This document shows, one piece after another, positions 6,001 through 22,292 of a DNA stretch of 22,500 nucleotides. Numbering within the stretch: the first letter of the stretch is position 1; every line of letters begins with the position of its first letter. Location of the stretch: NCBI GenBank assembly GCA_008690995.1, contig VRMN01000006.1, forward strand, positions 1-22,500, given 5' to 3'. Position numbers and translations under genes: made by a program. Below the pieces are notes generated by a model that did not search any database, was not told where the DNA came from, and saw only the letters and a list, made by a program, of their open reading frames with translations. The DNA comes from Porphyridium purpureum. Taxonomy: Eukaryota; Rhodophyta; Bangiophyceae; Porphyridiales; Porphyridiaceae.

Positions 6001-9000
6001 CGCCCCGGCCGCAGCAACGGAGCCTGCGCTCGTCACGCGCACAGGAGAGGCTAGTGAGGCCGTTTGCTGCTCCATTGCCGAGGTGACTCCCATGCCACTC
6101 GATCCCGATGCTGACCCAGACTTTGACTGCGCAGCGTGCGCAAGCGCCGCAGCTGCGGCCGCTGAGACTGGAACCGCGCCGCGCTGACCCGGAGGATTCT
6201 GCGCAAGCGGCGGCCTTGCAGCTGTACCGGGAATTCCAGCGGCAGACTGGGAAGCAAGGCCAGACACTCCGGCACCCATTCCCCCACGAGCTAATGAAAC
6301 GTGCGCTGAGTTCTGATTCTGAGGGGCATGAGCCTGCGAGATTACGGCACCCGCGTTCGCTGTTGCTGCCGCGACCGACGGTGTGGTGTCCACGGCTGAA
6401 ACAGTATCTCGCTTGATTGTGACCACTTCCTTGGCGACCCGCGTGAGCACGCGAACCATTGTTTCGTCGTGGCGTTTCATGCGCTCAGGTGCATTGCGGT
6501 TCAAAAACGCTAGCACCGGCACCACATTACGTATTATCGTATGCTCGAGTGTCGCTAAACTGTGTTCTAGGTCGTCCTGGAATGACACCAGCAGGTTCTG
6601 AATCATCACCTTGCTTGCCTGCGCACTCAGTGGCACCGCAACACCTGCATCGTTTCGAGGCGAAGCAAGTAGCGATGACGCGGCTGCACCTGGCCCACCG
6701 GAAACTGACGCAACAGACAGACCAGGCTTGGCATCCTTCTGCTTGTCTCCATCTACCGATGCCGCGGCTATGGGTTGAGAGAGGGTCGATGGTGAAGCAA
6801 TTGCCGCTTGCGACCCCGCAGGTGGTGATCCTCCGACTTGCCCAGCCACCGGCCCCACCGGGGGCGGTCTTGTCGCGAGCTGTGCTGCTTCAACCGCTTG
6901 TACCGGAGCGCGTACAGCCGCCGACTTGAGGACGCTGAACTGCTCCGCTGTGGCAGTTTGGCCAATTGGAGAGCATTCACCGCCGCCACCCGTCACGTCG
7001 CTGTCCGTGTCCATTTTTGTCTGTGCCTCCTCGTACAACTTGAGCAGCACAGCGATAAGCTTGACAAGCACGTCCGGCATGCCCACCGCATTGGACCTAA
7101 ACGATGGCAGAAAGACCGCCTTGAACGCCCCTAGATTGTTCTCGGCACCCCTCAAACCTTGCTTCTCGAGAACGACCGAACACAGCTTGACCGACGTCCA
7201 GATGCTCACCTGCCGCACCAGCTGCTTCTCTATTGCTTGAACATCTACAGGCGATTGAAAACCACCAGACGGAGAAGCAGAGGCCGCTCCAGAGAGTGAT
7301 TGCATCTTCGTGGCCCCCGCGTCCACTTGATGGCCTCTGGCAGCTGCCGAGGCTGCTACCGCCGAAGCGGTTTGTCCGCGCTGCTGCTGTGCAGCAGCCA
7401 ATGGATTCACACCTATATTCATATTCATCCTCCCTACTGATGGATTCTGGCCACCCCGATCCGCGGCGGGAGCGGCCGCGGAGGCCGCTGCAACCGCCGC
7501 GGCTTGGGCGGCAGCCGCGGCTGATTGCAAGATCTTTTCCACATGCTGCAGACGGATCAACGTGTCCGGCCAAAGATCCAGAGCGTCACTGATTAGCGCA
7601 CAGCAGCGCTCCGCGAGTGCCATGCGCTCTTCGCGCACTGACGCCGCAAACGCAATTTTTGCCAAGAAATTCACAATCATCTCAACCATGGCACTTGTTG
7701 GCTTAAAGTCGTCATCCATCGCTGCAGCCGATGCCCCCGCAGCTAAGGCAATACCCTGCTTGTGCTTCACATGATTGAGACTACTACCTGGGCTTTGCGG
7801 ACCTGGAGATGGGGACGGGGATGCAGAGGGGGATGCCGACATTACGTCAGCCGCATTATCCTTATTCGAGTCCACAGCAACAGATACCGAAGACGATGAT
7901 CCCGCGACTTTTCCTCTGCCTGTTTCCCTCTCCAAAGTGACTGGAACCGGAACAGGGACCGCGTTTCCAGAAGCATCTTTGAGCTGCTTGGCTGGCCGCC
8001 GGTCGGTTTCCACCAGCATTTGCGCGTCTGTCGCGCTCGATTCCCGTTCAACGCCACTCCTACCCGGGGCGTCTCTCAAGGGGTCAATATTCACATCAAG
8101 TGACTTGGATTCGTCTTCCGGCTCCTGCCGCACCCGCTTCCCCCCAGCCGTCGAGCCTGTGGCGCTGGCAGCCTCGTCCTTCTCATTGTCCATTTCTCCA
8201 TACCCTGGTGCGTTTGTCGGCTCGGTGATGGCGGACCGTGCAGCAGCCGCAGCAGCCTGCCTCGTTTTCTCCCACTGAATCACAAGTTCAGCCAAATCAA
8301 CGGTAAGGCGTCGGTTCTCGGTGGTGGTGGATGGGCTGAGCCCAAGTCGCTGCAGGCTGTTCACCATCTGTGGAACGAACTGCGCACGCGCTGGATAAAA
8401 CAAAGATCCGTGACGAACCAAGAGCTGCCAGATGTGAACGAGATGTTGCAACGAGTGACCTTCCTCGACCAGCATCTTCTTGATATATCGGATCCATATC
8501 GGGTATTTGTGTTCCTCCGCGTGATGCGGCAGGCGTATGGGCAGTACGGGAGTGAGAACGTCCAGTGCTTTGCGAACTAACGTTCGCCCTTCGGGCTGGC
8601 ACGCCCGCAACAACGCAACGTACACCTGCAGGATAATCTTGTCCGGCGCTACGTATGCCTCGAAGAAACGACACACATTCATAAAGGCCCAGCACTTGGT
8701 CACCGAGGCGTCTCTCTTCAAGTGGTTCCAGCCGAACTTGATTAGTTCCTTGCGATACTGCACGAGCTTCGACGGCAAGTTCTGGATGAGTAGTGTCGCA
8801 AGCTGCAGTAGTTCAGCAGCAAACGGTTGAGGTGGCGGTAATCCTTGAGCCTGATGTCCGCTTTGATGAGCACTTGAATGTACGTGTGTTCCATCCCTCT
8901 CCTCCGCTGCTGCAGTACTGCTTAATGCCGCACTCGGCACCGACACGGACTCATCACCATAGTCGAATAACTCCCTGACCATGCGATCTATCACGTCTGC

Positions 9001-12000
9001 ACTGACGACAGGATGGTCTGCACCAGCCTGGACTTGGATTTGATTTTTGCTCGGTTCGGCGGCGCTGGCGACATCAGTCACTGTCGCGGGGTCGTGCGCA
9101 TTCATGCTCGATAAAATCTTTTCCATGAACAGCACGAGTAGCGTGAGCGCGTGACCCTTGCGCTCTTGCGGAACGGATGTATCCTTGAGTAAATTGAGAA
9201 AGTGACACAGCACCGCGTGCTTCTCTGCATCTGAGTACTCTGTTGGGATGGTGAGCGTAAAGTACAGTTTCACAAACTCAAAATCACGAAGCGAGCGTCG
9301 AGAGAACACTGATAGCAGCTGAAAAAGCGCCGCCAGCTCGCCACGCTGACGGTAACAGTAGCGAAGAATGCATTCAGCAAGCGTCTGCGCCTCGCCAATC
9401 TGCTCAACTGGCAGCAAATCTTCCTTCTTAATGTGCATTTCCACCCAATCCGGGTTATTCCACACATCTACGAGACAACCAAACACATCTGCCTGCTTGG
9501 CGAGCCAGTCAGGCAGGCGTGAAGACAAAATTTCAACTACAACAATCCCACAGAAGGTGAGCGATGACAAGGGCGGGATGGCGGATTGACCCGATGCTTG
9601 ATTCGGCGATGCAAAAGAAGCACTGCCTGGTAGCAACTGCGCTGCAGCGGAACCGGTGGGTGCAACAGAGGAAACGCCCGGCGCGGCGGTACCAGCCTGA
9701 GAGCTACCACTTGGTGGTGCGGGGACCGATGGCAAACTCCCGCTTGCCGGCTTGCTCGCACCTGCACTCACACCTTGCCCGCTGACCCCCCCTGCCACTA
9801 CCGGTTTGAACTTGAACGTGGCGTCAATTAACTTTTGAGTGTTTCCAGCGAGGGCGTCTCTCAAGGGACCGCCGTCATCAGCCCACAAAAACGCAAAAAA
9901 CAGATTGCGCACGTTTCCGTGCCCAGCTCCAGTAGCATTTCCGCCAGCACCGGTCAAATTGTCGCTGCGCAAGAAAAAATCCACTGCATCCGACGCATAC
10001 CGATTGCAAAACTTCAGCAGCGCCGCGCGGAACGGCGATGACGAGGACACGTGCTGGCCCGCGAGGCCTTCGTTACTGTAGCACACGGAGCTGAGCAACA
10101 TAGCCCCGCCGAAGTTCACCTGCTCGAGGTGCAACACAGTGTGTACCAGCGGTTCCATGAAGCGCACAGCGCCACTCGGAAGGAGATGGAAGAGCTCGAG
10201 AATGGCAACGGCGACCTTGATTTCTGAGCCTGCCGGCCACTTCTTTGCCGCAGCGAGCTTCTCCGGCTCCATCCACTTTTGTAAGTGCTCCAGAAGCTTG
10301 TCAGCAAGATTAATATTGAACCAGGACGACAGTAGTTCCAGCACACGCGACAGACCAGCCAAGTAGTTGACCGACAGTTTCAAATAATCGGAGAGCAGCA
10401 CTAGAATTGAACGCAGATTCGCCTGCAGAATATCCTTCGGTACGTGCGGCTCTGCTACGACAAGCCTTAGTCCATCACACGCTTGCGTCACGATGGCTTC
10501 GTGGCGGCTTTCGAGCGCGCGAAAGAAAACGCCTACAATCGGCGCTAGCAGTTCCGCGTGTGCGGAGCCTTGCGACTGAAATACAGCCTTGTCGCGCATG
10601 AGCACGGTAAAAAGCTGCAGGATTGTGAGCTTGATGTTCACCAAGGCCTTGGCGACGCGGCGGTCAACGAGCTTGTTCTCGGTGAGCCTTATAAGTGCCG
10701 CGTCCTCAGCCTCCACAAGCCGCAGGATCGTTGTGTCTTCCGCGATTTCTATCGACGCCGCAACTATGGCTTTGAGCGGCGCATGGTCTAGGACCTCTCG
10801 TGCGGTAAATAATGGAGGCTTGGCGCGACCGGCATCCATACTCATTACAAAACACAGCATGCTGACAATGCCTGCCTGCGTCACAAACGGAACTGTCCGC
10901 AGCGGACGAGAGGCCGGTGCTAGCGAGCGCGCCACATTCTCTTTCCAAGGGCCCGTCCACAGCTCGCGCAGGCCATAACCGCGCTCGCGGCAGATAAATG
11001 CCACCACACCTTGCGCGGCCTCACGCGTCAGCGTGACGTCCGCGATGCAGTCTTGGAACACGGCGAGTGTCACGTCTCGATCTACATCCAGTAGCTCCTC
11101 TGCGCTTGGGAAGGGGCCACGCGCAGCCGGCGAGACTGCTGCGACATCGGAAGCGACTTTTGCTCGCGTTGGACCACTCGCATCCCCGCGCGGAGAAAGT
11201 GCTTCGTCAGTATCATCCCTCATCGTGACCGGCCCGCTTTCCTCATCATCATTTTCATCGATATTTGTGGCCTCCTCCTTCGCGCCCTCTTTCAGCATGA
11301 CCTGGCCCTCTGCCTCTGATGCCGGCGCGTGCGCATCCGCCAATGTTGTGGACATGTCATCAAAGCAGATGTTGCTGTGACACGCTTTCAAGCAATTGCT
11401 AATGCTCTCTGTCGCGCACGCGGTGAGATAACTCGCGCTTTGCACATGTGTCTCGCGAAGGACCGCCAACAGGCTTTTCAGAATTTCGATTTCGAGTGTG
11501 GGTTTGTACAGCTTGCTCTCGATTCCACTAAAGTACAAACCACTGGCAAGAGGAATCGAGGACAGGGGCGCAACCAGAAAACTTCGCGGCAGGCGACGAA
11601 CGAGCAATCCTAGCACGCGCGTCGCGCCATACTTTTCTTGCCATTTGATGCCGTGGCAAAGGTGGCAACAAGCGCTTAGAATTCGCAGCACCGCGGCACC
11701 CGCCGCCGCAGAACCAGAACTCCCGCACGCAATCAGGTCCAGTTCGGATTCACCTTGCAACTCAGAGTGCACCTTGAGTAGCTGTGCCACAAATTCGTCC
11801 AGCAAATCGGAAGCGTACACGGACGTCGAAACGGAGGTCTCTGAGAGGGACTCAATGCAAGCAGTCACGAAGGTACCGGCCGAAATGTTGACTTCCGATG
11901 CTTGCACACTACTAGAAGAATCAAACAAGTCGGCGGTATTTCTACCCGGGCACATCGCATCCTTCCATTCGTCCAAATCCCCACTGCTCCCTCCCGCCAT

Positions 12001-15000
12001 GACCTGGCGCGCGTACATGGCTATCACTGAAAGCATGAAAGCGTCCGGCGGCGGCAAGCTGTCGTCCTTTTCGAAACGCACTGCTTCGCGACCCACGTGT
12101 ACATCTGGCGGCTCCAGTGGTGCTGAATCGCTAGAAGACGTATCGACATGCGCCGAACCTGACCATGCCGATTTGATGTCGGCGTCTGTACAACACACCA
12201 CCAAACATTTGCACAAATCAAGCGCCACCTGCTTTCCAGCACCTGGAAGAGAACGAGCCGCCGAGGCCGCTGCAACTGTAGCGAGACTCACATTTCGACC
12301 AGATCCACCCTTCGAATCTTCAAGTTCATTCCTTTTGCGCGCGCTGTCGCCGTGATGAGGAGATGACTTGCCCCTCAAAGCAGCGCTTGTAGCAACGTCA
12401 GCATTTCGAAACGCTTGGTATATACTCACAAGCAGCTTATATGCGTGCACTTTCTGCTCCAAGAGAGCTGTCGAGCTTGGGGCAGACGAGTTTCCTGGAA
12501 GGAACCCCAACCCGAACCCAGATCCAGCGTTAGACAGCGCGGCCTGCGACGAAAAGATGCTGCGACAAAAGGCCACGAAGTAGTCCATCTTCATCGAAAC
12601 GCCACAACTGTGCATCCCTTCACAGTCCCAAGCGAGCTCAGCTGTGACTGACGGAGCACAGCCGACTGGCGGGAGGTTCCTTTGTGTGTCGTCCGCGCGA
12701 ACTTGCATGCAATTTTGCAGATGCTTGTCCCGGTTCGCCGCACCCATTTTGCCGAGAATTCTTACGCAAGTCATACCAAAGCCCGTTGTTCCCGGGCGCG
12801 CGTGCTCCCACAACCCGTAACTCAGCTGCGGCTCGACTTTGCTCAGAAGACCCTGCAGGAACTCAGGATGCAGTGTGTCCACCCAGAACTCGAGCGTGCG
12901 TAGCGCAAGGCTCGTGAGTTCGTTCGAACACTTGAGTGCCTCTGCTATGGGCTGAATATGGAGCGAAAGGCAGGGTAACAATGTACTTGGACGCGCTGGA
13001 ATCGTCAGGCACAGCTCAAGCATGAGATCCCTGTACTTTTCACCATGCGGTCCGTTCAGACTGTGCATGAGCGTGGTGAGCGTGTTGGCTACGAGAGGCA
13101 TAATTTCCTTGTAAATGGGATCGTTCCGGCCACCCGCAAGAGACTTGAAGAGTGCGCGCAAAAGCTGCAAGTAATGCACCGGGTCTGCGTCAATTCGCGA
13201 AATTCCAGTCAAGCAACCATTCACTAATGTGCCCACGTGCAGTCGGAGGGCGCTTTCGTTCTCAGGAAACACAGTGACAGACGCAAAGAGGATCTTGAAT
13301 AGCCGCAGCAGCGCCTGCGACCGTGAGAGCTCAGTCACTGGCGCTGTGCTTGTGGTCATCTCGCCCTTCTCGCCGTCCTTTCGCGCGGCCTTGTCTTGCT
13401 TGCCCGTTCCACGGATGGGCAATCTCGTCGTCTCGTTCTTTGCTCTCAATCGATCATGAAGCTCCTGCCCGTTTAGCTGATCTTTCGGCCGATCATCTGT
13501 GTCCCGCGCCTGCCGCTGCGCTTCTTCCTGATTTTCCTCTACCCGCTGCTGGCGCTGCTGCCCCCTTTGGCCCCCACGCACGTCACGGCCAGAGCCAACA
13601 CTTTTGCTTCGACCACTTATGACCACATTCAACGGCCCGCCACCTTCGTCCAGCTCATCCAGGCGTGATACCAAGAAGTTGCCCAGTATGGTTGCAAAGT
13701 AACGGGAAATATTCGAACTCGACAGAAACTGCTGCTGAATCATTAGTGTGGCCTGGTTTGTCGAATTGAGATCAAAAAGCGCGCCTACGCGAGTGCTGAA
13801 CAAACTCAGAAAGTTCTTCGGCTCTAGCACGGTAAATATTTGCGCAAACTGGTCAACAATTTCCTTTTCCTCGGCCTTCGCGGTCTCGACAAGCGATGAT
13901 CTGCCGCTTGAGCTCGTGCCCTCCAATGTTGAGCCCAGCAAGGACGCAGCAGCTGCCACCGTTTCCCGGTACAACTCGATACAGCCAGGGAACGCGTCCA
14001 ACAAATCCGCCAACATCGCACATTCCTCCTCGGACAATCCCTTTTCCTTAATCGGTCCAGGCGCTGTGAGCGCAGTGCTCGCCCCTGCCCCTGCCCCTGC
14101 CCCTGCCGTGGCGTCAGTTGTACCATCAATGCGAGTTTTTCGCACCGCCGGTAGTGCGACCGGTGTGTTGCTGGCAGACCACACCACGGTTTTAAGACCC
14201 ATGGTGAGCGTTTTTAACAGCGCTTTGGTGTCGTGATATTCCTTGTGCAACGTGGCCAAAGGGTCCTCGGGCGAGCGATATTCGGACGCAATTCCGCCAC
14301 CGCCATGCGACAATGGCGTGCTGGTCCCAGTTCCGGTCCCGGACGCCGACGGTGACTGCTGCTTCGAACTGCTGTTGTTGGGCTCCTTTTCCTTGAGTTC
14401 TTTCACCTCTGCCGCAGCTTTCTTCACTCGCTCAATCAAGAGCGGCACGCTGCGGCGCATGGCGACGTACTTGCTTACCATGGTATCCATAATGCGTACG
14501 AGCAGAACACGTGCCTTCGGATCTGTATCCGACTTGTTCAGCAAACCTTCAATCAAATTCAGCAAAAGGCGCACACTGGTGGTTTGGATGTGCGGGTTCA
14601 GCGTAGGGTCGTGCACGTTGGTCGAAAACAAGTAAATGATGCGGCCCAGGTGCGGCAGGCTCAAGTTCAGTCGCACATAGTGCACGAGCTCGGCCAAAAA
14701 CGAGTAAGCGAGTGGTCGCAGTGACTCGTGAGCTTGGCGGCCAGTGCCTATGAGCACCTTTTCGTCGAGCAGCAAATCAATTTGGCTGTAAAATGCCGCA
14801 CGGAAGTCGGCAGCAAGGATGTGTCGCGTCGCGATCAACAGCTCGCGTCGAATGGGTACAGCATCGGCCGGACAACTCAGTAGAAGCTGCACAACCGACT
14901 GGGGAATTGAGCGCTCATACGGCCGTAACAGGTCGTTGAACTGCTTGAGCACAAACGACAAAAATGAAACCGTCTTCACCTGTGCAGCGATGAGATCGTG

Positions 15001-15795
15001 CAGAGTGTTGCGATTGCGCATCGGTCCTGCAGGCACTTGGAGCTCGGTCGCACGCACCATGAGGGGAATCAGGGTGCGCACCGATGAAGTTACGGTCCTC
15101 GCGTACAGCTGCGACAGAAACATGACAATCAAGGGACATTCTGTGACGACCTTAAAGCTGCAAGTCGACTTGAGAAGACGCGTTGTACCACCTGTGGCAT
15201 TGTTTGACCCCGCTCCCGTGGCTGCAGTGCCGACAAGGGACGCTACGCCAACGGATAAGCCTCCTGCTGCTCCTGCTTGAGCCGCTTGGTGGGCACCGCC
15301 TGCTCCGCTTGCGCCGGCTGAGAAGAGCGTCTGCACTGTTCTCGGAAAGTTGGAGTAGACCTCTTTGACAAAGTCCAAGATCGGCTGCACATGTTCCTCT
15401 AGTGTGCCACGGTAACTTTTGTGCAGGTCAAATATGATCTTGAGGCAGATGATTGCATTATCTTCATTCTCACTCTTGAGCGCGGTCATGGCGATTTGCA
15501 GGATTTCCACCACATAGGGCCTAGTGACCTCAATGTGTGGCAGCCGGTTCAAAATTTCAAGCACAAGGTGGCGTGACTTCTGGTCAATGCCGTCCACCTC
15601 CTGCGGCGGAATCAAGTGGTCAAGGACCTTCTTGAACACAGAAATGAAGCGCCTGAGAAAGCGCCGGTACTCGGCCGTATGCACAATTTCAATCGAGTCG
15701 CGGATTTCCGTGAGCAGTTGCAGCCGTCGCTGCGGCGACGTCTGCTGGCTGCTCAACTCTTGCGAGTGTGCCTCAAATGCCGTACTCGTGAGCAT
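4..15795 (-). CDS. TRA1: Tra1/TRRAP-family PIKK pseudokinase, scaffold subunit of SAGA and NuA4 histone acetyltransferase complexes
   Basis: An uninterrupted 5263-codon frame runs from an ATG at 15795 to a TAA at 4-6. Tra1/TRRAP is a large nuclear protein that binds transcription activators and brings SAGA and NuA4/TIP60 to promoters. Seen here: an N-terminal helical (HEAT-type) region starting about residue 20, including the TRRAP-like block ENEDNAIICLKIIFDLHK near residue 110. The FAT domain spans about 3430-4350, opening with a block around YYILAQQDWEHIADSFW. The PI3K-like domain spans about 4830-5215, and a FATC tail ends in DPSWHSWF. Kinase residues are missing: the catalytic-loop Asp and Asn positions read Ala5077 and His5082, and the DFG position reads QTR (5096-5098). 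That is expected for this non-catalytic family. Yeast and human homologues are about 3700-3900 residues. The excess lies in low-complexity Ala/Gly/Ser/Pro/Gln tracts near residues 158-205, 475-580, 745-830, 1980-2070, 2500-2850, 2930-3260 and 4370-4635. No intron is needed. Family call is very secure; exact start is likely because the TRRAP-like N-terminus follows it. Confidence 0.95.
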   Translation of the reverse strand: MLTSTAFEAHSQELSSQQTSPQRRLQLLTEIRDSIEIVHTAEYRRFLRRFISVFKKVLDHLIPPQEVDGIDQKSRHLVLEILNRLPHIEVTRPYVVEILQIAMTALKSENEDNAIICLKIIFDLHKSYRGTLEEHVQPILDFVKEVYSNFPRTVQTLFSAGASGAGGAHQAAQAGAAGGLSVGVASLVGTAATGAGSNNATGGTTRLLKSTCSFKVVTECPLIVMFLSQLYARTVTSSVRTLIPLMVRATELQVPAGPMRNRNTLHDLIAAQVKTVSFLSFVLKQFNDLLRPYERSIPQSVVQLLLSCPADAVPIRRELLIATRHILAADFRAAFYSQIDLLLDEKVLIGTGRQAHESLRPLAYSFLAELVHYVRLNLSLPHLGRIIYLFSTNVHDPTLNPHIQTTSVRLLLNLIEGLLNKSDTDPKARVLLVRIMDTMVSKYVAMRRSVPLLIERVKKAAAEVKELKEKEPNNSSSKQQSPSASGTGTGTSTPLSHGGGGIASEYRSPEDPLATLHKEYHDTKALLKTLTMGLKTVVWSASNTPVALPAVRKTRIDGTTDATAGAGAGAGASTALTAPGPIKEKGLSEEECAMLADLLDAFPGCIELYRETVAAAASLLGSTLEGTSSSGRSSLVETAKAEEKEIVDQFAQIFTVLEPKNFLSLFSTRVGALFDLNSTNQATLMIQQQFLSSSNISRYFATILGNFLVSRLDELDEGGGPLNVVISGRSKSVGSGRDVRGGQRGQQRQQRVEENQEEAQRQARDTDDRPKDQLNGQELHDRLRAKNETTRLPIRGTGKQDKAARKDGEKGEMTTSTAPVTELSRSQALLRLFKILFASVTVFPENESALRLHVGTLVNGCLTGISRIDADPVHYLQLLRALFKSLAGGRNDPIYKEIMPLVANTLTTLMHSLNGPHGEKYRDLMLELCLTIPARPSTLLPCLSLHIQPIAEALKCSNELTSLALRTLEFWVDTLHPEFLQGLLSKVEPQLSYGLWEHARPGTTGFGMTCVRILGKMGAANRDKHLQNCMQVRADDTQRNLPPVGCAPSVTAELAWDCEGMHSCGVSMKMDYFVAFCRSIFSSQAALSNAGSGFGLGFLPGNSSAPSSTALLEQKVHAYKLLVSIYQAFRNADVATSAALRGKSSPHHGDSARKRNELEDSKGGSGRNVSLATVAAASAARSLPGAGKQVALDLCKCLVVCCTDADIKSAWSGSAHVDTSSSDSAPLEPPDVHVGREAVRFEKDDSLPPPDAFMLSVIAMYARQVMAGGSSGDLDEWKDAMCPGRNTADLFDSSSSVQASEVNISAGTFVTACIESLSETSVSTSVYASDLLDEFVAQLLKVHSELQGESELDLIACGSSGSAAAGAAVLRILSACCHLCHGIKWQEKYGATRVLGLLVRRLPRSFLVAPLSSIPLASGLYFSGIESKLYKPTLEIEILKSLLAVLRETHVQSASYLTACATESISNCLKACHSNICFDDMSTTLADAHAPASEAEGQVMLKEGAKEEATNIDENDDEESGPVTMRDDTDEALSPRGDASGPTRAKVASDVAAVSPAARGPFPSAEELLDVDRDVTLAVFQDCIADVTLTREAAQGVVAFICRERGYGLRELWTGPWKENVARSLAPASRPLRTVPFVTQAGIVSMLCFVMSMDAGRAKPPLFTAREVLDHAPLKAIVAASIEIAEDTTILRLVEAEDAALIRLTENKLVDRRVAKALVNIKLTILQLFTVLMRDKAVFQSQGSAHAELLAPIVGVFFRALESRHEAIVTQACDGLRLVVAEPHVPKDILQANLRSILVLLSDYLKLSVNYLAGLSRVLELLSSWFNINLADKLLEHLQKWMEPEKLAAAKKWPAGSEIKVAVAILELFHLLPSGAVRFMEPLVHTVLHLEQVNFGGAMLLSSVCYSNEGLAGQHVSSSSPFRAALLKFCNRYASDAVDFFLRSDNLTGAGGNATGAGHGNVRNLFFAFLWADDGGPLRDALAGNTQKLIDATFKFKPVVAGGVSGQGVSAGASKPASGSLPSVPAPPSGSSQAGTAAPGVSSVAPTGSAAAQLLPGSASFASPNQASGQSAIPPLSSLTFCGIVVVEILSSRLPDWLAKQADVFGCLVDVWNNPDWVEMHIKKEDLLPVEQIGEAQTLAECILRYCYRQRGELAALFQLLSVFSRRSLRDFEFVKLYFTLTIPTEYSDAEKHAVLCHFLNLLKDTSVPQERKGHALTLLVLFMEKILSSMNAHDPATVTDVASAAEPSKNQIQVQAGADHPVVSADVIDRMVRELFDYGDESVSVPSAALSSTAAAEERDGTHVHSSAHQSGHQAQGLPPPQPFAAELLQLATLLIQNLPSKLVQYRKELIKFGWNHLKRDASVTKCWAFMNVCRFFEAYVAPDKIILQVYVALLRACQPEGRTLVRKALDVLTPVLPIRLPHHAEEHKYPIWIRYIKKMLVEEGHSLQHLVHIWQLLVRHGSLFYPARAQFVPQMVNSLQRLGLSPSTTTENRRLTVDLAELVIQWEKTRQAAAAAARSAITEPTNAPGYGEMDNEKDEAASATGSTAGGKRVRQEPEDESKSLDVNIDPLRDAPGRSGVERESSATDAQMLVETDRRPAKQLKDASGNAVPVPVPVTLERETGRGKVAGSSSSVSVAVDSNKDNAADVMSASPSASPSPSPGPQSPGSSLNHVKHKQGIALAAGASAAAMDDDFKPTSAMVEMIVNFLAKIAFAASVREERMALAERCCALISDALDLWPDTLIRLQHVEKILQSAAAAAQAAAVAAASAAAPAADRGGQNPSVGRMNMNIGVNPLAAAQQQRGQTASAVAASAAARGHQVDAGATKMQSLSGAASASPSGGFQSPVDVQAIEKQLVRQVSIWTSVKLCSVVLEKQGLRGAENNLGAFKAVFLPSFRSNAVGMPDVLVKLIAVLLKLYEEAQTKMDTDSDVTGGGGECSPIGQTATAEQFSVLKSAAVRAPVQAVEAAQLATRPPPVGPVAGQVGGSPPAGSQAAIASPSTLSQPIAAASVDGDKQKDAKPGLSVASVSGGPGAAASSLLASPRNDAGVAVPLSAQASKVMIQNLLVSFQDDLEHSLATLEHTIIRNVVPVLAFLNRNAPERMKRHDETMVRVLTRVAKEVVTIKRDTVSAVDTTPSVAAATANAGAVISQAHAPQNQNSAHVSLARGGMGAGVSGLASQSAAGIPGTAARPPLAQNPPGQRGAVPVSAAAAAALAHAAQSKSGSASGSSGMGVTSAMEQQTASLASPVRVTSAGSVAAAGAPGVPVQEQSEVSLLISIIRLLSERVSALDEHRKQFIQVLWALLERCAQPSILQCILTDCVAKWVTFGEASKVLPTSPLVDKEKLQFLNRMASFERLQAHIPGVNQLQASYLEVIYNLFAAPDASTYEDALGKLEKPFLIGTRSSDPQIRAKFTKLLCAPVGRTPENRLYYILAQQDWEHIADSFWIRQAVELLLDIVDSKVNLSIQCVATSDAVVRGVNGQARDCCAMDTMPDWTNDYDLDSAVGVVDLQLRERTSTVEFFLSCVRFFIHTDVDFCKQIWLSVFRAAWKTLPREDDFYGSGYSRSSPYELTMLSCNYVDVLASPVLQALIALIGKEYMLQQAGRRQNVVQCLVEGCAGVGTDEDGGDVDGESDGSLDLNLPAELLLYTAQKFGTWYVSIYLLESRLGALLRMRGIVSTYSSTSVGPSGGGGGADLQMWSSSTYNQIHTYGDVAMGSPGGGSYSPHTMGWNAVLEAEVETLQDVLCELYRLLNEHDMEIALWKQRTASSMTLTALFLEQRKDYDSAMRAYLESLSGAISSQGGLAQGEQQRSHQYQQRYSHAHARQHQNQQHVTLKEARMLEDKWIHCTKQLSHWDVLTEYSRSIVDTDLLHECLWRTPDWAALKELLAKHPIDDPVKLRLYQGFVQLQENKLENVTQLVEQASQKALEAFYSLPKNAGLTAYTPSLIVFQRLVELQESVRVISELNAANQGGAGVAPGVNTNTHPVGTDIPLDNIRQVLTSWRERLPAYSDAPLVWTDLLGWRQHIFTCILNTMQSLKETAGRDVPPPVLCLGVNETAWIVNKIGTMYRKKGLPESCLYVLMKMYTYPTMDVGDFFVKTKQQLKSYLKYPKFVDNPLAVGLRHANSCNIQHFPSKQKAKLFCLKGEFFFRLKQGPEASQAYTEALRFAADLSSSWLAWGQYCDAAALESAPVASVLGGMAGSGAGPETGTVSGGAATSAAGPAAAPRIPGATFNQQHSWPEATVTCYLMAVRFGSRRARMFISRVLRLLSLDSSSTADEASQTLVAQAILRFLDLFPNWAWLPWIHQLLPMLARREASVARDILVRIAVQYPQAVFYNLRSFLEERRPLDMKGTSGGSPTPSLVQEALQAPRQNVPPLLPTATQQMSIQQEQQLQAAQAAANSALSKFQQLQAHALQAAENVRQLESQSTVTAAAKQAARAAAEKAAQVASSAQKQASELANKATALQQRQNQMAQMTGLQPGGSAVAGAAGARAGVFSSAAAGVKAAGPAPTASVSGAVRAAGAAPSAVATGSSAGAVGSVATPGAATPSPPSVAAVSGKDAGAGTAQPSAPSPGTAPPSGVPRAGAPVSGASPPGSTSPGMKANVGPHATAASAQLVPKAAVSMDPNEAVALSIAAAAKLSASSAHQHAEIVMAMLIKHHQSLYVELERTALELSMRLKPQHEEQLLGLMQALLHRCYQLAPYAVQVVAPSIRSALEEVARMCFGTVSAGAAAPPASSFKIAPSIVDLKEAFEAELAPQTAKDFPATIEPFIRRLLRWKNIFQRRVDAIPRVQRLEHMSRYLLLLHESEVEVFGQYTGVDGSEPSPDLHIKIGRISANVTVMRHYNNASKRLELIGTDGNQYHFILETSVNVSTQRTEERAAQLYRLFNLLMENFLGRRCGFGFAPVGLDAPCLIPTSQHTRLVRDDPSSQSLLQALEAGLARRNMSVDQVCILFRRRTFDCLFSDGWSDTGAARSSAELLQQLAPSHGEGHFQHSSVNIKTGAVARQDALMARLQAFNYLCERVVPETALLHWVQMRVQTAGDLFALRHSLAKSLGVSSLVNYMLAIGARRPQHMLISLKSGRIQHVQTRPLVSSRGLIECDEGVPFRLTRNFVRLLGDANIHGAFSSYMAAAVDGLKDSEQLVSHFLFAVLRDEFGASESAATVVSGPAAPSSTAEPPLAVPVPNPAQVLVEKRLAESVRLILKRLEPLPDPPTNADGVLQDLDGVSKKVSELVSLAGSAHALCQMDPSWHSWF
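14082..14106. repeat. Short CCCCTG hexanucleotide microsatellite inside the Tra1 gene
   Basis: About four tandem CCCCTG units lie within the coding region. On the minus strand they encode an alternating Ala-Gly run near residues 565-572, inside one of the low-complexity insertions. The six-base unit keeps the frame, so copy-number change would only alter protein length. This shows directly how such insertions can grow. Confidence 0.8.
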
Positions 15796-16480: not shown

Positions 16481-18103
16481 ATGAATCACCACCCGTTCGA
16501 GAAGCAGCAGCCGCCGCCGCTGCCGCCGCCGCAGCAGCAGCAGCCGCTGCATCAGCATCTACCGCCCAACGTGTCGCTGCAGCAGCACCCGCCTCAGGCA
16601 GCGCAACAGCATCATCAACAGCAGCAACAGATGCATGCGATACAGCAGATGCATGTGATGCAGCAGCAGCATGCCCACGCACAGGCTGAGGGCGCGGACG
16701 GCGAACCAAATCCTGCGGCAACAGATCCGGCGTACGCCGCGGCGTTTTACATGAATCCAATGAACGGCCTCACGTACAATCCGTATGCGGCGGCGGCGGC
16801 AGTCGCCATGGCGCACGCTTACAGCAGGGCCCCGTCTGGAGGCGCGCAGCCGCGAGTAGGGCCAGGCGTTGGTGCCGGTGGCGCGAATGGCGGCACCGGC
16901 GCGGGCTCGGCGATGAACGGCACCCAGGTGTCGATCTGGGTGGGTGACCTGGACCCATACATGGACGAAAGATTCCTGACAAACGCAGTTGCAAGCGCCG
17001 GCTGGACAGAGCACGTGCAGCGTGTCAAAGTGATTCGCAGAAGTAGCGGCGCACACGCCGGGTATGGGTTTCTCGTAGTTCATTCCATGGAGGCTGCACA
17101 GCATATCATTCAGTTTGGAAATGGTCTGCCTATCGCAATGACAAACCGTTCGTGGCGCCTTCAAATGGGCCGAGTGTCTGGCGGCTCGGGTGACGACGTC
17201 GGAATGGATCAAATGCAGCAGCACGGCCAGCACTGGAATCGGGCCGCGTCGGGTGACGCAGTCGCAGGCGATGCGGCCGGGCGCGGCGGCTGGCAGCCAG
17301 CTACGGAAGCGAATCTCTACGTTGGTGATTTGGACCCTGCGGTCTCTGACTATGAGCTGCTCAACTACTTTCGCGCACGATTTGCGTCTGTGCGCCACGC
17401 CAAGGTCATGTGCGATGAGGTGGGACAGAGCCGAGGATACGGATTTATCAGATTCAGCTCTATGGCCGATGCGCAGGAAGCAGTCAAGCTGTTCAACGGG
17501 ACCATGATTCGCGGCCGACCGATCCGGGTTAACCTGGCGCATCGCTCGTCCGGAGGACAGTCGAATGATTCGCGCGGAGGCGGCGGCGGAAATGTGAATG
17601 GCGGCACGCATCCTAATGGACCAAAGCGTAGGAGAGACCAAGGGAGCGTGCCTTCGGGCGTGACAGACGAATCCATCACGACCTTGTTTGTGGGAGGCAC
17701 TATACCGAGCATTCAGGAAGGCACACTATGGGAGGAATTTAGTGCACACGGTACGGTGCAGGCCGTCAAATTACCCATTTCGAAAACGGGCTTTGCATTT
17801 GTTCGGTTTGCTACCCGAGCCGACGCCGAGAGTGCCAAGAATGCTTTGAATATGAGCAGTGTGCCCAGCATTAATCCGCATCGCGCGATTCGAGTTGAGT
17901 GGGCGGCGGAACAACTTCCTGTTCGCGATACGTCGGCGGCATCAGATGGCGCGTCGATGGTCGTAGATCAGTCGCAGCAGTCGCAGCAACAACAAGCCCA
18001 GTCTCAGCTATCGCCACAACAGGAACATTCACCTCAAACCGACAGCACGGAGGACGCAACACATACAAAGACAAATGGTGATGCTGTTTTGATCGAGGAA
18101 TGA
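16481..18103 (+). CDS. Three-RRM RNA-binding protein of the Nam8 / RBP45-47 / TIA-1 / SECp43 type
   Basis: A 540-residue intronless frame begins at ATG 16481 and ends with TGA at 18101-18103. Residues 1-70 are Gln/Pro/His-rich, followed by a Gly/Ala linker. RRM1 spans about 150-232 (RNP2 IWVGDLDP, RNP1-like AGYGFLVV). RRM2 spans about 277-355 (LYVGDLDP; RGYGFIRF at 318-325). RRM3 spans about 401-474 (LFVGGTIP; TGFAFVRF). A basic KRRRD at 382-386 may be a nuclear signal. The tail after 495 is Gln/Ser-rich and ends acidic. The VGDLDP motif in RRM1 and RRM2 and the spacing of three RRMs match yeast Nam8/Ngr1, plant RBP45/47, animal TIA-1 and SECp43, which act in U1 snRNP-dependent splicing, mRNA binding or selenocysteine-tRNA handling. 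Sequence alone does not decide which role applies. RRM1 has a weaker RNP1 than the other two. The Gln-rich ends suggest granule-forming behaviour, which is inference. Confidence 0.93.
   Translation: MNHHPFEKQQPPPLPPPQQQQPLHQHLPPNVSLQQHPPQAAQQHHQQQQQMHAIQQMHVMQQQHAHAQAEGADGEPNPAATDPAYAAAFYMNPMNGLTYNPYAAAAAVAMAHAYSRAPSGGAQPRVGPGVGAGGANGGTGAGSAMNGTQVSIWVGDLDPYMDERFLTNAVASAGWTEHVQRVKVIRRSSGAHAGYGFLVVHSMEAAQHIIQFGNGLPIAMTNRSWRLQMGRVSGGSGDDVGMDQMQQHGQHWNRAASGDAVAGDAAGRGGWQPATEANLYVGDLDPAVSDYELLNYFRARFASVRHAKVMCDEVGQSRGYGFIRFSSMADAQEAVKLFNGTMIRGRPIRVNLAHRSSGGQSNDSRGGGGGNVNGGTHPNGPKRRRDQGSVPSGVTDESITTLFVGGTIPSIQEGTLWEEFSAHGTVQAVKLPISKTGFAFVRFATRADAESAKNALNMSSVPSINPHRAIRVEWAAEQLPVRDTSAASDGASMVVDQSQQSQQQQAQSQLSPQQEHSPQTDSTEDATHTKTNGDAVLIEE
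16503..16552 (+). repeat. CCG/CAG trinucleotide-rich tract encoding Pro/Gln run
   Basis: Imperfect CCG and CAG triplets at the start of the RRM gene encode the Pro- and Gln-rich run at residues 9-24. Further Gln/His-rich triplets continue to about 16680. Such tracts change length easily and could differ between strains. Confidence 0.7.
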
Positions 18104-18204
18104 AGTGATGTCACATTGCACGCTCTTGAAGTAGAGTCCTTTGCATTCGAAACCACCCATTTTCTCCTCGTAGTTCTTTCCATGCATATTTGGGTTAAAT
18201 AGTC

Positions 18205-18210
18205 AATAAA
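18205..18210 (+). terminator. Poly(A) signal AATAAA for the RRM gene
   Basis: A canonical AATAAA lies about 100 bases past the RRM stop codon, in an AT-richer 3' stretch. It is the first such hexamer downstream on this strand, so it is a reasonable 3'-end signal. Cleavage would be expected a few tens of bases later. Confidence 0.5.
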
Positions 18211-18539
18211 CGACGACATAGCTCCCACGACAGGTGGGGCAGAGGCCTGGCATCCATGTCTCCGGGCAAAAGGGGTTGCTTTGAATACCCATTTGTCAAC
18301 CAATTATTGTATTCTGCCGGCAGAGACTGCGTGACTGCCTCGCAAGAGCCGTGTGGTGGCCACAATTGGCGGGCGTTTGGGCCAGGAGGTCAAGCCATCC
18401 TTTGACGCTCGGCCTCAAGATTTCAGAAATTGAGAGTCAAGGCAAGGCTAGGCGGGTCTTCATCAAGCATGCGTCCCGTAAATGAGACCTTGAAGCAGAG
18501 AAACCAATGAGGCAATCTTGAGAGCTCGCGCCTAAATCA
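18211..18539. other. Intergenic stretch with no recognisable gene
   Basis: This follows the poly(A) signal of the RRM gene. Frames on both strands are short and interrupted. Weakly coding-looking fragments on the plus strand (for example about 18363-18480) could be the eroded N-terminal part of the Fanzor relic that follows, but no motif proves it. Confidence 0.5.
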
Positions 18540-19690
18540 GCACAACGAGCAGCTGTAATTACATGAACCACATGCTGAAGCTATAGAAACAGGATCTACT
18601 GCACACAGGTATCTTAAGACGCAAAAAGCAAGTGGAGGAGCGTTGGTGGATTTTCGTGCAATGACTATGCAGCGTTCAAGTAAAGATGGTAGGGCACAAC
18701 ACTAGAGCCTTCAGCTTCTTGCCCTGAGTATCTTCGCTTGGAAACACATCACATGTGACACTGGCCATTAGCGAGGGCCACCGCGATGTGTTGTTGGTTG
18801 CATCGGCCATGCCAGACCAGAGCCTTTCCATGACTTTTCTGCACCAATGCGAGGTAGCAGTCGAACACCTGTTTACGACTGAGTGAAGGAAAGGTACGAA
18901 GAAACCGCGTGAGTTTACGGCAAATGGGAAGATGCATAGCTATCCTTTCTGTGTCGAACCCGGCAACGTGAAAGCTGCACGGACTGCGAAGAAGCGCGGC
19001 AAAAATGTGCTGACGCTGTCACTCTTATTCAGGACTTTACTGGCAAGCGCGTGGTAGCAGAAGACAGTGGTCTCCTTAACCTTGTCTATTGATAGTAGAG
19101 GCAAGACGATGAGAACGAGAAACTAGCATTTGCACGCCATAGCGACAAAGAGTACCAGCAGAAGATTGGTCTCGAGGTAGCTCTGATAAACCGCGCGTAA
19201 TGGATGAGCAGAGCAAACCTGATAAAGGCTTGACCCAAATGGCGAGCGCAAAGACTCCTGATGCTGTCCTGATATTTGCCTACACTGACTTGTTCACCAT
19301 CCTGGACAGGCTGCTGCAGCTGAATTCCGAAGGACCGCGAGCGATGGATGGCATCTGTCAAGACATCCAAGATTCAGCTGGTGCAAGTAAGAGCAGACGT
19401 GTGGGAGTAGCCTACAAAGCAGGTGTGTTCAGCAACTGCAGCCAGGATGACTGCGCCGGCGCCGAGGAGGAAGTGCGCAACGCTTTGAGGACAAGAGCCA
19501 TCGAAGTGTACGAAGCGAGTGAAGACCATATTAGCCAGTGGTGCAAATACTGTCAAAATAAAGTAGTGCCGATTTCCAGTGCGGGCGGCGACCACGTGAC
19601 GAAGCCACGGTGCTGACTGCAACGACATGGGCTCGCAAGACCCTGAATTGCAATGTCAAAGCCGCAGTGAACATCCTGCACATCATAAAG
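18540..19690 (+). pseudogene. Decayed Fanzor (eukaryotic TnpB-like RNA-guided nuclease) gene
   Basis: Fragments in all three plus-strand frames follow the order of Fanzor proteins, the eukaryotic relatives of IS200/IS605 and IS607 TnpB. Near 18.69 kb RAFSFLP resembles the 'r.Fs.lP' block. At about 19045-19089 KRVVAEDSGLLNLVY resembles RuvC-I (v.v.DPG..n.v), with Asp at 19063. About 19099-19197 contains FARHSDKEYQQKIGL, like the following 'ls..yy...g' segment. The longest open piece (ATG 19200 to 19616, 138 codons) has VGVAYKAGVF at 19401-19430, like 'v.ayG.g.F'. It then has EDHISQWCKYC (Cys at 19542 and 19551), matching the 'dE.rTS..C..C' start of the zinc finger. At about 19643-19678 LNCNVKAAVNIL matches 'WnRDvNAA.NIL' (RuvC-III), with Asn in place of the Asp. 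Three consecutive stops (TGA TAG TAG, 19090-19098), frame changes and the lost second Cys pair show that it is dead; an intron could not remove the clustered stops. No terminal repeats or target duplication were found. The family call comes from motif order and spacing and is not database-verified. Confidence 0.72.
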
Positions 19691-20158
19691 GAGACATTGC
19701 ATGACAGTTGACGGCAGGTTTTCGCACGTCGGTTTGAAACCGAAGTCGCGCCTGCAGCAGCAATTGGAGAGGGCAGAACAGGGCAGGAAGACGCACCTGT
19801 GTGAGTTAAGTCTATCCAAGTCTTCAAACTACATGGTAAGTTTATGTTGAAGCACAGTAGCCCGCAATACTTCCCAGGTCATGGAGCCCTCCGTTGCTGA
19901 AGCACAACACAAGTACAAATAGACATGCAGCTAATGTGCAAAGCGGCAGCTCTTCACAGACGCAAAGCGTTGAGTATGCGGAATTTGCGCTGCTGAGTCC
20001 CCCGAAGTCGATAATAAAATAGCACCTTTTCCGGTCATTGAGCGAGCATGCAGGGTATTTTCGTGAACTTGCTGGTTGCGCGAAGACCCGCCAATAAATC
20101 GAGAAAAAAATTTATTCAACGCACGGCAGGCGTTGCAGCGAATGACCAACGCGAGGGA
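19691..20158. other. Intergenic stretch downstream of the Fanzor relic
   Basis: I see no gene here. It is AT-richer than the flanking genes and has AATAAA at 20013-20018 and 20093-20098 on the plus strand. It may include the 3' end of the decayed element, where related elements encode their guide (omega) RNA, but nothing in the sequence marks such an RNA or the element boundary. Confidence 0.45.
20111..20116 (-). terminator. Possible minus-strand poly(A) signal for the PLP enzyme gene
   Basis: TTTATT on the plus strand reads AATAAA on the minus strand. It lies about 410 bases beyond the stop codon of the PLP enzyme gene, which would make a fairly long 3' UTR containing the tandem repeat and the hairpin. 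A non-canonical signal nearer the stop is equally possible. Confidence 0.3.
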
Positions 20159-20226
20159 CGCATGTTAAATTGGCCAATGCTTGCGCGCGGGGCGCATGTT
20201 CAATTGACCAATGCATGCGCGCGGGG
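20159..20226. repeat. Two tandem 34-bp repeats containing CCAAT motifs
   Basis: Unit 1 is 20159-20192 and unit 2 is 20193-20226. They start CGCATGTT and end GCGCGCGGGG, and differ at only a few positions. Each has CCAATGC in the middle; unit 1 also holds the palindrome ATTGGCCAAT. A weaker third copy may precede them at about 20139-20158 (AATGACCAACGCGAGGG). CCAAT is the core bound by NF-Y, but the position is downstream of the convergent enzyme gene, so a promoter role is doubtful. Other readings are a small satellite or part of a mobile element end. Confidence 0.75.
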
Positions 20227-20243
20227 CGAGTGTCGATGAGCAA

Positions 20244-20274
20244 CCGGAGCGTGGGACGAATATGCTCGCTCCGG
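20244..20274. repeat. Inverted repeat able to form a hairpin
   Basis: CCGGAGCG at 20244-20251 is exactly complementary to CGCTCCGG at 20267-20274, with a 15-base loop. It lies right after the tandem repeat and within the probable 3' UTR of the PLP enzyme gene, so it could fold in that transcript. There is no following T-run. The role is unknown. Confidence 0.5.
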
Positions 20275-20525
20275 ATGTGCACTGTTGCGCACATGCATTT
20301 ACGTTTACTTTGAGAATCGCTGGGACCCATGCTTGAAGCCTGCGCAGCAAGAGCAGCTCGGCTGCGGCAAGGCGGGCTGCTGCACCGACGTTCCGCACGG
20401 CCAGCTCGCGCTGTCGGAGCCATGCACGCAGTTCCGCACGTGACCACGCGCTGGCGCACACGTGTGCGAGGAGTGGCTTGAAAACGCGCGCAGGTACGGA
20501 TGCGACACGCTGGTGCGCGGGAGCA

Positions 20526-22292
20526 CTACGCCAGGCCCATTTCCTGCAGCGCGTCCTCGAGGACGAGCGCCCAGTGCGTCCAGTGGGTGCCGCCCTGCGC
20601 ATACACGACGTACGGCTCCCGCAGCGGACCGTCTGCGGAGAGCTCGAGCGTGGAGCCATCCACGAACGTTCCGTCTGCAAAAATGACCTCGTCGCCGTAG
20701 CCCGGCGTCTGGCCGGGCTCTGGCAGGATGTACGCGCCCACGGGGCTCTGGCGCTGGACTGCGCGGCAGAACGCGATGAGCTTGTCGCGCTCGCCCAGCC
20801 GGACGGCCTGAATGATGTCGGAGCGGGCGGCGTCGGCTGCGGGCGAGACGTGGAAGCCGAGGTCGGACATGACCTGGGCGACGAGCAGCGCGCCCTTGAG
20901 CGCTTCGCCGACCATCTGCGGCGACAGGAAGAGGCCCTGGAGCAGGGCCTTGTTGAGGTTCATGGAGGCGGCGCCCTCGACGCCCGGCGCGGCCATGCGG
21001 TTCTGCGCCAGCTTGACGTAGCGCGCCTTGCCCGCGACGTACCCGCCCGTCGGCATGATGGTGCCGCCGCAGTTCTTGATGAGCGAGCCGGCGACGATGT
21101 CTGCGCCGACGGACGGATGGGTGGGCTCGATGTCGAGCACGAGCTCGCCGTAGCAGTTGTCGACGAAGAGGACGATGTCTGGGCGGATGTGCTTGACGAG
21201 CTGCACAATGCGCGCAATGTCGTGCATGGCGAGCGACGGGCGGAGCGCGTAGCCGCACGAGCGCTGGACGAGCACCATGCGCGTTTGCGGGCGCAGCGCG
21301 GCCTGTATGGCGTCGAACTGGACGAGGCCGAGCGGGCTCAAGTCGAGCTCGCGGTACGAGATGCCAAAGTCGCGGAGCGAGCCGGTGTCCGCGGCGCGCT
21401 GGTGGTGCGCGCGGCGCAGGCCGATGACCTCCTCGAGCGTGTCGTACGGCCTGCCCGTGACGCTGAGCAGCTCGTCGCCCGGGCGGAGGACGCCGAACAG
21501 CGCGGCGGCGATGGCGTGCGTGCCCGAGACGAACTGGGGCCGCACGAGCGCCTGCTCGCAGTCGAAGAGGCTTGCGAAGACGGCGTCGATGACCTCCCTG
21601 CCGAGGTCGCCGTGGCCGTAGCCTTCGACGCCGGCGAAGTGGTGCGCGCCGACGCGGTGCGTACGGTACGCGGCGAGCAGCCGCCTGAGCGTGGCCTGCG
21701 TGCTGGCGTCGATGCGCGCAAACGCGGGCGCGAGGCGCTGCGCGGCGTCGCGCACGCTGCGCGGCGGCGACGCGGCGGGCGACGCGGCCGGCTGCGCGGC
21801 GCGTCCAGCGCGGCCACCGGTGCTGCCGCGGCGGGCCGCGCCGTCGCTGCGCAGCGAGCGCACGCGCGCGGCGGCAAACGCACCGCGCGCGCGGTGTCCC
21901 GCGCGGAACGCCTGCGCCGAACGCCCGAGCTGCGGCGTACCCGGCGGCCCAGCGCTGCGCGTGGCCCCGGCTCCCCTCTGCTTCCAGTCGGCGCACAGTG
22001 CAGGCGACGCAGCGCAGAACACGCGAGTGCCGCAGGCGGCGGGTGTTCTGGAGCGGCGCGTACCGCGGCGCTTCGTAACGGCAGCGCGCGCGCGCAGCGC
22101 GGCGCCGCAGTGTAAGCAGCGCGGCGAGTCATAGGGGTGCGCGGCGCGGCGCCCAGGCACGCGGACTCGGCGGGTGCGTCGCGGGCTATGAAAGCGGCGC
22201 GCTGGCGAGAGCCGGCGCGCAGGTCGGTGCGCGGAGGCTGCGGTCTCTGGGGGAGGGGTTGACCACGGCGGCGTGCGCGCCTCCTGGTGCAC
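20526..22292 (-). CDS. PLP-dependent YnbB / methionine gamma-lyase-like ('aluminium resistance') family enzyme, probably plastid-targeted; 5' end uncertain
   Basis: The stop codon TAG is at 20526-20528. The conserved core (about residues 185-585, numbered from 22292) follows the whole family: HHFAGVEGYGHGDLGR, VRPQFVSGTHA, PGDELLSVTGRPYDTLEEVIG, VDNCYGE with the PLP-nitrogen Asp378, SLIKN with the Schiff-base Lys406, GTFVDGSTLELSADGPLR and YAQGG. This is the fold-type I family of Bacillus YnbB, annotated as cystathionine beta-lyase-like or aluminium resistance; the true substrate is not settled. The core is complete and about the bacterial length. The extra N-terminal part of about 180 residues is Arg/Ala/Ser/Pro-rich with few acids, like a plastid transit peptide. 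The start is a problem: the codon at 22292 is GTG, no ATG occurs in frame before Met339, and the frame stays open to the window edge. A first exon, a start beyond the window, or an ATG in another frame at 22132 are possible. Base composition is clearly more G+C-rich than in the rest of the window. Confidence 0.88.
   Translation of the reverse strand: MHQEARTPPWSTPPPETAASAHRPARRLSPARRFHSPRRTRRVRVPGRRAAHPYDSPRCLHCGAALRARAAVTKRRGTRRSRTPAACGTRVFCAASPALCADWKQRGAGATRSAGPPGTPQLGRSAQAFRAGHRARGAFAAARVRSLRSDGAARRGSTGGRAGRAAQPAASPAASPPRSVRDAAQRLAPAFARIDASTQATLRRLLAAYRTHRVGAHHFAGVEGYGHGDLGREVIDAVFASLFDCEQALVRPQFVSGTHAIAAALFGVLRPGDELLSVTGRPYDTLEEVIGLRRAHHQRAADTGSLRDFGISYRELDLSPLGLVQFDAIQAALRPQTRMVLVQRSCGYALRPSLAMHDIARIVQLVKHIRPDIVLFVDNCYGELVLDIEPTHPSVGADIVAGSLIKNCGGTIMPTGGYVAGKARYVKLAQNRMAAPGVEGAASMNLNKALLQGLFLSPQMVGEALKGALLVAQVMSDLGFHVSPAADAARSDIIQAVRLGERDKLIAFCRAVQRQSPVGAYILPEPGQTPGYGDEVIFADGTFVDGSTLELSADGPLREPYVVYAQGGTHWTHWALVLEDALQEMGLA

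Follow-up and report, generated by a model that had tools for sequence, protein, structure and literature searches.

The DNA between positions 19045 and 19711 of the window (the whole 22,500-nucleotide stretch of the Porphyridium purpureum contig VRMN01000006.1 that was analyzed here) is probably a decayed, 5′-incomplete pseudogene of the Fanzor1 type, left by a mobile element between two convergent genes. In Fanzors, an RNA from the end of the element guides the cutting of matching DNA. In the scenario that we favor, a mobile element with a Fanzor1-type gene would have entered between the two genes and then decayed, and the remnant would correspond to the C-terminal half, with RuvC and zinc finger, of an RNA-guided endonuclease. 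In life, RNA from the end of the element may have guided this protein to cut matching DNA. Because three stop codons stand behind the RuvC-I-like block and at least two frame changes lie between the blocks, the present copy cannot make the protein and in all likelihood is inactive. The order, spacing, and frames of the blocks and the stops are observed directly, whereas homology to Fanzor1, the insertion, and the former function are inferred from them.

Fanzors are described as guide-RNA-directed DNA endonucleases (PMC10432273). Their fingerprint, as set out in PMC10711439, consists of a DPG motif, called there “near exclusively” the Fanzor form, and of a Glu moved beside the zinc finger. A [TS][TS] motif ahead of the zinc finger is described in PMC3627910.

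Conserved blocks and their reading frames

Four Fanzor-like strings had been quoted in a first-pass annotation of this DNA, and all of them are present on the plus strand in the order given there (Table 1). Their spacing also fits: the DSG of the RuvC-I-like block and the Glu ahead of the zinc finger are about 150 codons apart, and the search pattern published in PMC10711439 allows 120–160. The same annotation let the fossil start at 18540, for which support is lacking; the evidence spans about 19045 to 19711.

Table 1. Features of the Fanzor-like stretch (positions in the window)
Feature	Position	Strand	Frame	Remark
RuvC-I-like block KRVVAEDSGLLNLVY	19045..19089	+	+1	Asp kept, DPG changed to DSG
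Stop codons TGA TAG TAG	19090..19098	+	+1	adjacent, in frame, directly behind the RuvC-I-like block
Reopened frame, 33 codons, then TAA	19099..19200	+	+1	likeness to the Fanzor1 region after RuvC-I by eye only
Open frame, 157 aa	19143..19616	+	0	holds VGVAYKAGVF and the Glu/zinc-finger entry
VGVAYKAGVF	19401-19430	+	0	
Helix, Glu and zinc-finger block AEEEVRNALRTRAIEVYEASEDHISQWCKYC	19461..19553	+		block chain, 6.5 to 12.9 bits
EDHISQWCKYC	19521-19553	+	0	fits ExxxxxxCxxC of PMC10711439
HGADCNDMG, possible second zinc-finger half	19600..19635	+	+1	by eye only
RuvC-III-like block KTLNCNVKAAVNILHI	19637..19684	+	+2	block chain, 11.8 to 12.3 bits
LNCNVKAAVNIL	19643-19678	+	+2	RuvC-III string quoted in the first-pass annotation
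Closing stop codon	19709..19711	+	+2	

In the RuvC-I-like block, Asp and Gly of the DPG motif are present and Ser replaces Pro (DSG, 19063-19071). Beyond the three stops, the block chain described below took another frame (19131-19151) instead of the reopened one. The 157-aa frame, the longest of the stretch, is ordinary in length, being equaled or exceeded in 329 of 1000 shuffles. Within it, the Glu at the relocated RuvC-II place is located six residues ahead of the first CxxC, as in Fanzors and as the earlier annotation had read it. The [TS][TS] motif ahead of the zinc finger is replaced by IS (TS changed to IS). The C4 zinc finger itself is incomplete: the first CxxC is present, and the second pair is whole in no single frame. 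For the second half, the block chain preferred 19581-19613 in frame 0 (2.3 to 4.3 bits) to the piece picked out by eye. The RuvC-III block had been annotated as matching “NRDvNAA.NIL”; its site is indeed picked by a chain of Fanzor1 blocks only, but the R-D place in KTLNCNVKAAVNILHI reads C-N (NRD changed to NCN), with Asn where GtFz1 also has Asn.

Codon usage, taken from the Tra1 and RRM genes of the window, ranks the assigned frame first among the plus frames in 19024-19197, 19200-19599, and 19637-19711, and not in the short segment 19600-19635. Some minus frame outscores the assigned one in three of these four segments.

Searches with Fanzor1 models and their controls

Three solved Fanzor1 proteins, SpuFz1 (PDB 8gkh), PpFz1 (9cf0), and GtFz1 (9cer), were found with a consensus sequence, and their C-terminal halves were taken from the alignments. 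From these three alone, a chain of seven blocks was built, in which the reference spacing could vary by ±45 bases and the frames were left free. The chain lands on RuvC-I at 19051-19092 (6.2 to 7.4 bits) and on the Glu/zinc-finger and RuvC-III blocks of Table 1. Its score was reached by 17 of 1000 shuffles at pseudocount 5, by 6 of 3000 at pseudocount 10, and by 13 of 3000 at pseudocount 20. A smaller run with pseudocounts 3, 5, 10, and 20 gave 27, 3, 0, and 0 of 300 shuffles, and decoy models with permuted columns gave 12, 3, 0, and 1 of 300 at the same settings. When a single reference was used, shuffles reached the score 2 times (PpFz1), 66 times (GtFz1), and 173 times (SpuFz1) in 1000. With an added F-x-G...TDG block, which SpuFz1 and PpFz1 carry upstream, the score at pseudocounts 5, 10, and 20 was reached by 66, 17, and 13 shuffles (of 3000) and by 12, 2, and 1 decoys (of 500). 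In scans of the whole window, at pseudocounts 10 and 20 for the seven blocks and at 5, 10, and 20 once the TDG block was included, the site is the top plus-strand chain. A triple of regular expressions also has a single plus-strand occurrence in the window, is absent from the minus strand, and appears in 0 of 1500 shuffles; this is no test, because the triple was composed after the window had already been seen.

Several controls point the other way. The long middle block has no counterpart (-13 to -24 bits), and apart from the three blocks named above, the others score weakly (0 to 4.4 bits). Among other overlapping segments of the window, 3 of 67 reach the chain score at pseudocount 5. On either strand of the Tra1 gene, chains near 8.6 kb come close to the score of the site, and with the TDG block at pseudocount 5 the minus-strand one even exceeds it (32.0 vs. 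31.7 at the site). These chains near 8600 are a warning about evidence from short motifs. When the model is built from SpuFz1 and PpFz1 without GtFz1, the window scores 29.4, the highest of 200 shuffles 36.3, and intact GtFz1 about 99, while simulated decayed copies of GtFz1 have means of 61.6, 45.7, and 33.2 at substitution levels of 0.1, 0.2, and 0.3, respectively.

High scores are also found in viral contigs. Three DNA patterns retrieved 3, 0, and 6 loci there. In the first three loci, frames of at least 80 aa (all of those in L002 and parts of those in L001 and L003) contain no Fanzor by eye, and PF07282 has no match in the L001 record; frames at the six further loci look TnpB-like, again by eye. 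At pseudocount 10, the phage-type loci L001 and L003, in which no Fanzor was seen, score 39.3 and 44.2 against 39.3 for the window; among the TnpB-like loci, L004, L008, and L009 score 40.5 to 45.9 and L005 and L006 about 30 or less. Because the viral loci were fetched by motif patterns (a zinc-finger pattern in the case of L001 and L003) and, L001 and L003 among them, mostly exceed the gap in length, they form no fair null. Closer references were sought by pattern as well, with one match (protein) and 143 matches (alignment) in viral contigs and 30 (alignment) in prokaryote genomes, none of which was confirmed.

Family and PDB sequence searches gave no match to Fanzor. Pfam, run on seven stretches (five of them from the interval) and on ten more from the gap, returned no mobile-element family, Fanzor and TnpB included, and neither did NCBIfam on six stretches, where the sole line was a fumarate-reductase subunit (E 0.082, far under the cut-off). 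Against PDB sequences, phmmer found nothing with the 157-aa frame; the joined pieces gave a single chance-like line (E 0.63) and no Fanzor. The single-sequence AlphaFold2 model of the 157-aa frame has a mean pLDDT of 49.5, and in Foldseek it gives 38 PDB matches at E ≤10, none of them at 0.001. The order of strand, helix, and strand in this model fits a RuvC core, but with confidence so low it carries no weight.

The frameshift-tolerant profile search proposed in the first-pass annotation as a check, performed here on 18104-20300 with a profile of the three Fanzor1 references, is not significant, its score being reached by 25 of 240 shuffles. Sharper profiles did no better (109 to 166 of 300 shuffles and 16 to 25 of 35 other segments), and the best local segment under them is NCNVKAAVNILHII, aligned to RuvC-III columns. 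The decayed Fanzor of that annotation remains the best explanation in so far as a Fanzor1-only model picks the same sites, but neither the profile alignment nor the Pfam, NCBIfam, and PDB sequence searches bear it out. From these controls, the support for Fanzor identity is moderate.

The most serious competitor, which we consider unlikely, is chance: the open frames would be ordinary intergenic ones, and the Fanzor-like words would have been assembled from them by free choice of frame. Frames of such length are common in the shuffles, chains in coding DNA elsewhere in the window that is unrelated to Fanzor score nearly as high, no database search gave a hit, and the profile alignment is not significant. 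Against this, a model made from the references only picks the same sites in the same order and spacing, which 6 to 17 in 1000-3000 shuffles achieve, and the spacing of the relocated Glu is exact.

Relation to known nucleases

The RuvC-I, Glu/zinc-finger, and RuvC-III blocks follow each other in the order and spacing of SpuFz1, PpFz1, and GtFz1. The place of the Glu before CxxC is shared with all three of these proteins, and the Asn at the third catalytic place with GtFz1. Unlike them, the Porphyridium stretch is broken by stops and frame changes, its middle and upstream blocks are unrecognizable, and it has DSG for DPG/DPN, IS for TS, and NCN for NRD/NRN.

Of the catalytic residues, the copy keeps Asp and Glu. 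The Asn at the third place may be original, as in GtFz1 of the cryptophyte Guillardia theta, which is described as active with Asn there (PMC11423790), or may have come by decay. It is improbable that the fossil derives from a Fanzor1 lineage with Asn instead of Asp as the third catalytic residue, like GtFz1: decay of an Asp is equally possible, and the chain fits PpFz1 (2/1000) better than GtFz1 (66/1000). If it did, Fanzors of the Asn type may be old among algae of the red lineage.

A decayed TnpB or Fanzor2 (IS607-type) gene in place of Fanzor1 is less probable still. The RuvC and zinc-finger core is common to TnpB, Fanzor1, and Fanzor2, as seen in mimivirus L79 (PDB 9b0l) and ISDra2 TnpB (8h1j), and L79, TnpB-like according to its PDB entry, also has its Glu at the relocated place in the alignment. 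However, the TnpB families of Pfam and NCBIfam do not match the stretch, a comparison to be read with the block models having been built from Fanzor1 only. A spliced host gene with the segments as exons is hardly credible: the host is a eukaryote, as its Tra1 and RRM genes tell, so introns are possible, but the three stops follow RuvC-I immediately and are themselves followed without interval by the same open frame, so that an ordinary intron would not fit, and the nearby Tra1 gene is a single frame of 5263 aa.

For the Fanzor1-type pseudogene, the nearest parallel is CMe-1A of the red alga Cyanidioschyzon merolae, described as about 150 old Fanzor1 copies at ~80% to their consensus, some of them intact (PMC3627910). 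It likewise represents old, decayed Fanzor1 copies in a eukaryote and is likened here by its description alone; it differs in that some copies still encode an intact Fanzor1. Since these red-algal copies were described in 2013 (PMC3627910), a fossil of the Fanzor1 kind is not new. A Fanzor of Porphyridium is not named in the titles and opening lines of abstracts that were searched, and the passages of the one paper found to mention both words do not connect them. If the pseudogene is real, it is the trace of an element with an RNA-guided nuclease in one more eukaryotic genome, where a search for intact copies would be worthwhile.

The gap and the neighboring genes

The stretch is situated in a gap of ~2.4 kb between two convergent genes, as the first-pass annotation had it. 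On one side, a plus-strand frame that ends at 18103 contains three RRM stretches (Pfam), and on the other side, a minus-strand frame of 588 aa (20526-22292) is methionine gamma-lyase-like (PF06838, E 4.9e-167). In 300-base windows, the G+C content is ~0.47-0.55 in the gap and ~0.67-0.82 in the lyase gene.

For the transposon insertion proposed in that annotation, neither convincing ends nor an upstream motif were found. The F-x-G...TDG block was not found upstream, the best score in that zone being equaled by 863 to 972 of 3000 shuffles; an upstream extension carrying the TDG motif was rejected since shuffles do as well there. An inverted repeat of 15 bases with one mismatch (18463-18477 and 20322-20336) flanks the stretch, and 5 of 200 shuffles reach it. 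Inverted repeats of 12, 18, 24, and 30 bases are ordinary (31 to 141 of 200 shuffles), and beside the 15-base repeat no target-site duplication was seen. Terminal repeats are not taken as established. In Rfam, the region 18000-20600 has three matches, all far under threshold, and blastn against phages gave no match.

The window also contains a frame of 5263 aa on the minus strand (4-15795), with matches to the ring and central regions of Tra1, to FAT, and to PI3/PI4 kinase. That this Tra1/TRRAP-like frame is uninterrupted suggests few introns, at least in that gene. In the lyase-like frame, the PF06838 match spans residues 180-585, and the ~180 residues ahead of it, which are unexplained, may be a leader or may reflect a wrong start. 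On the lyase side of the gap, a 34-base unit is present in two tandem copies that are 85% alike (20150-20217).
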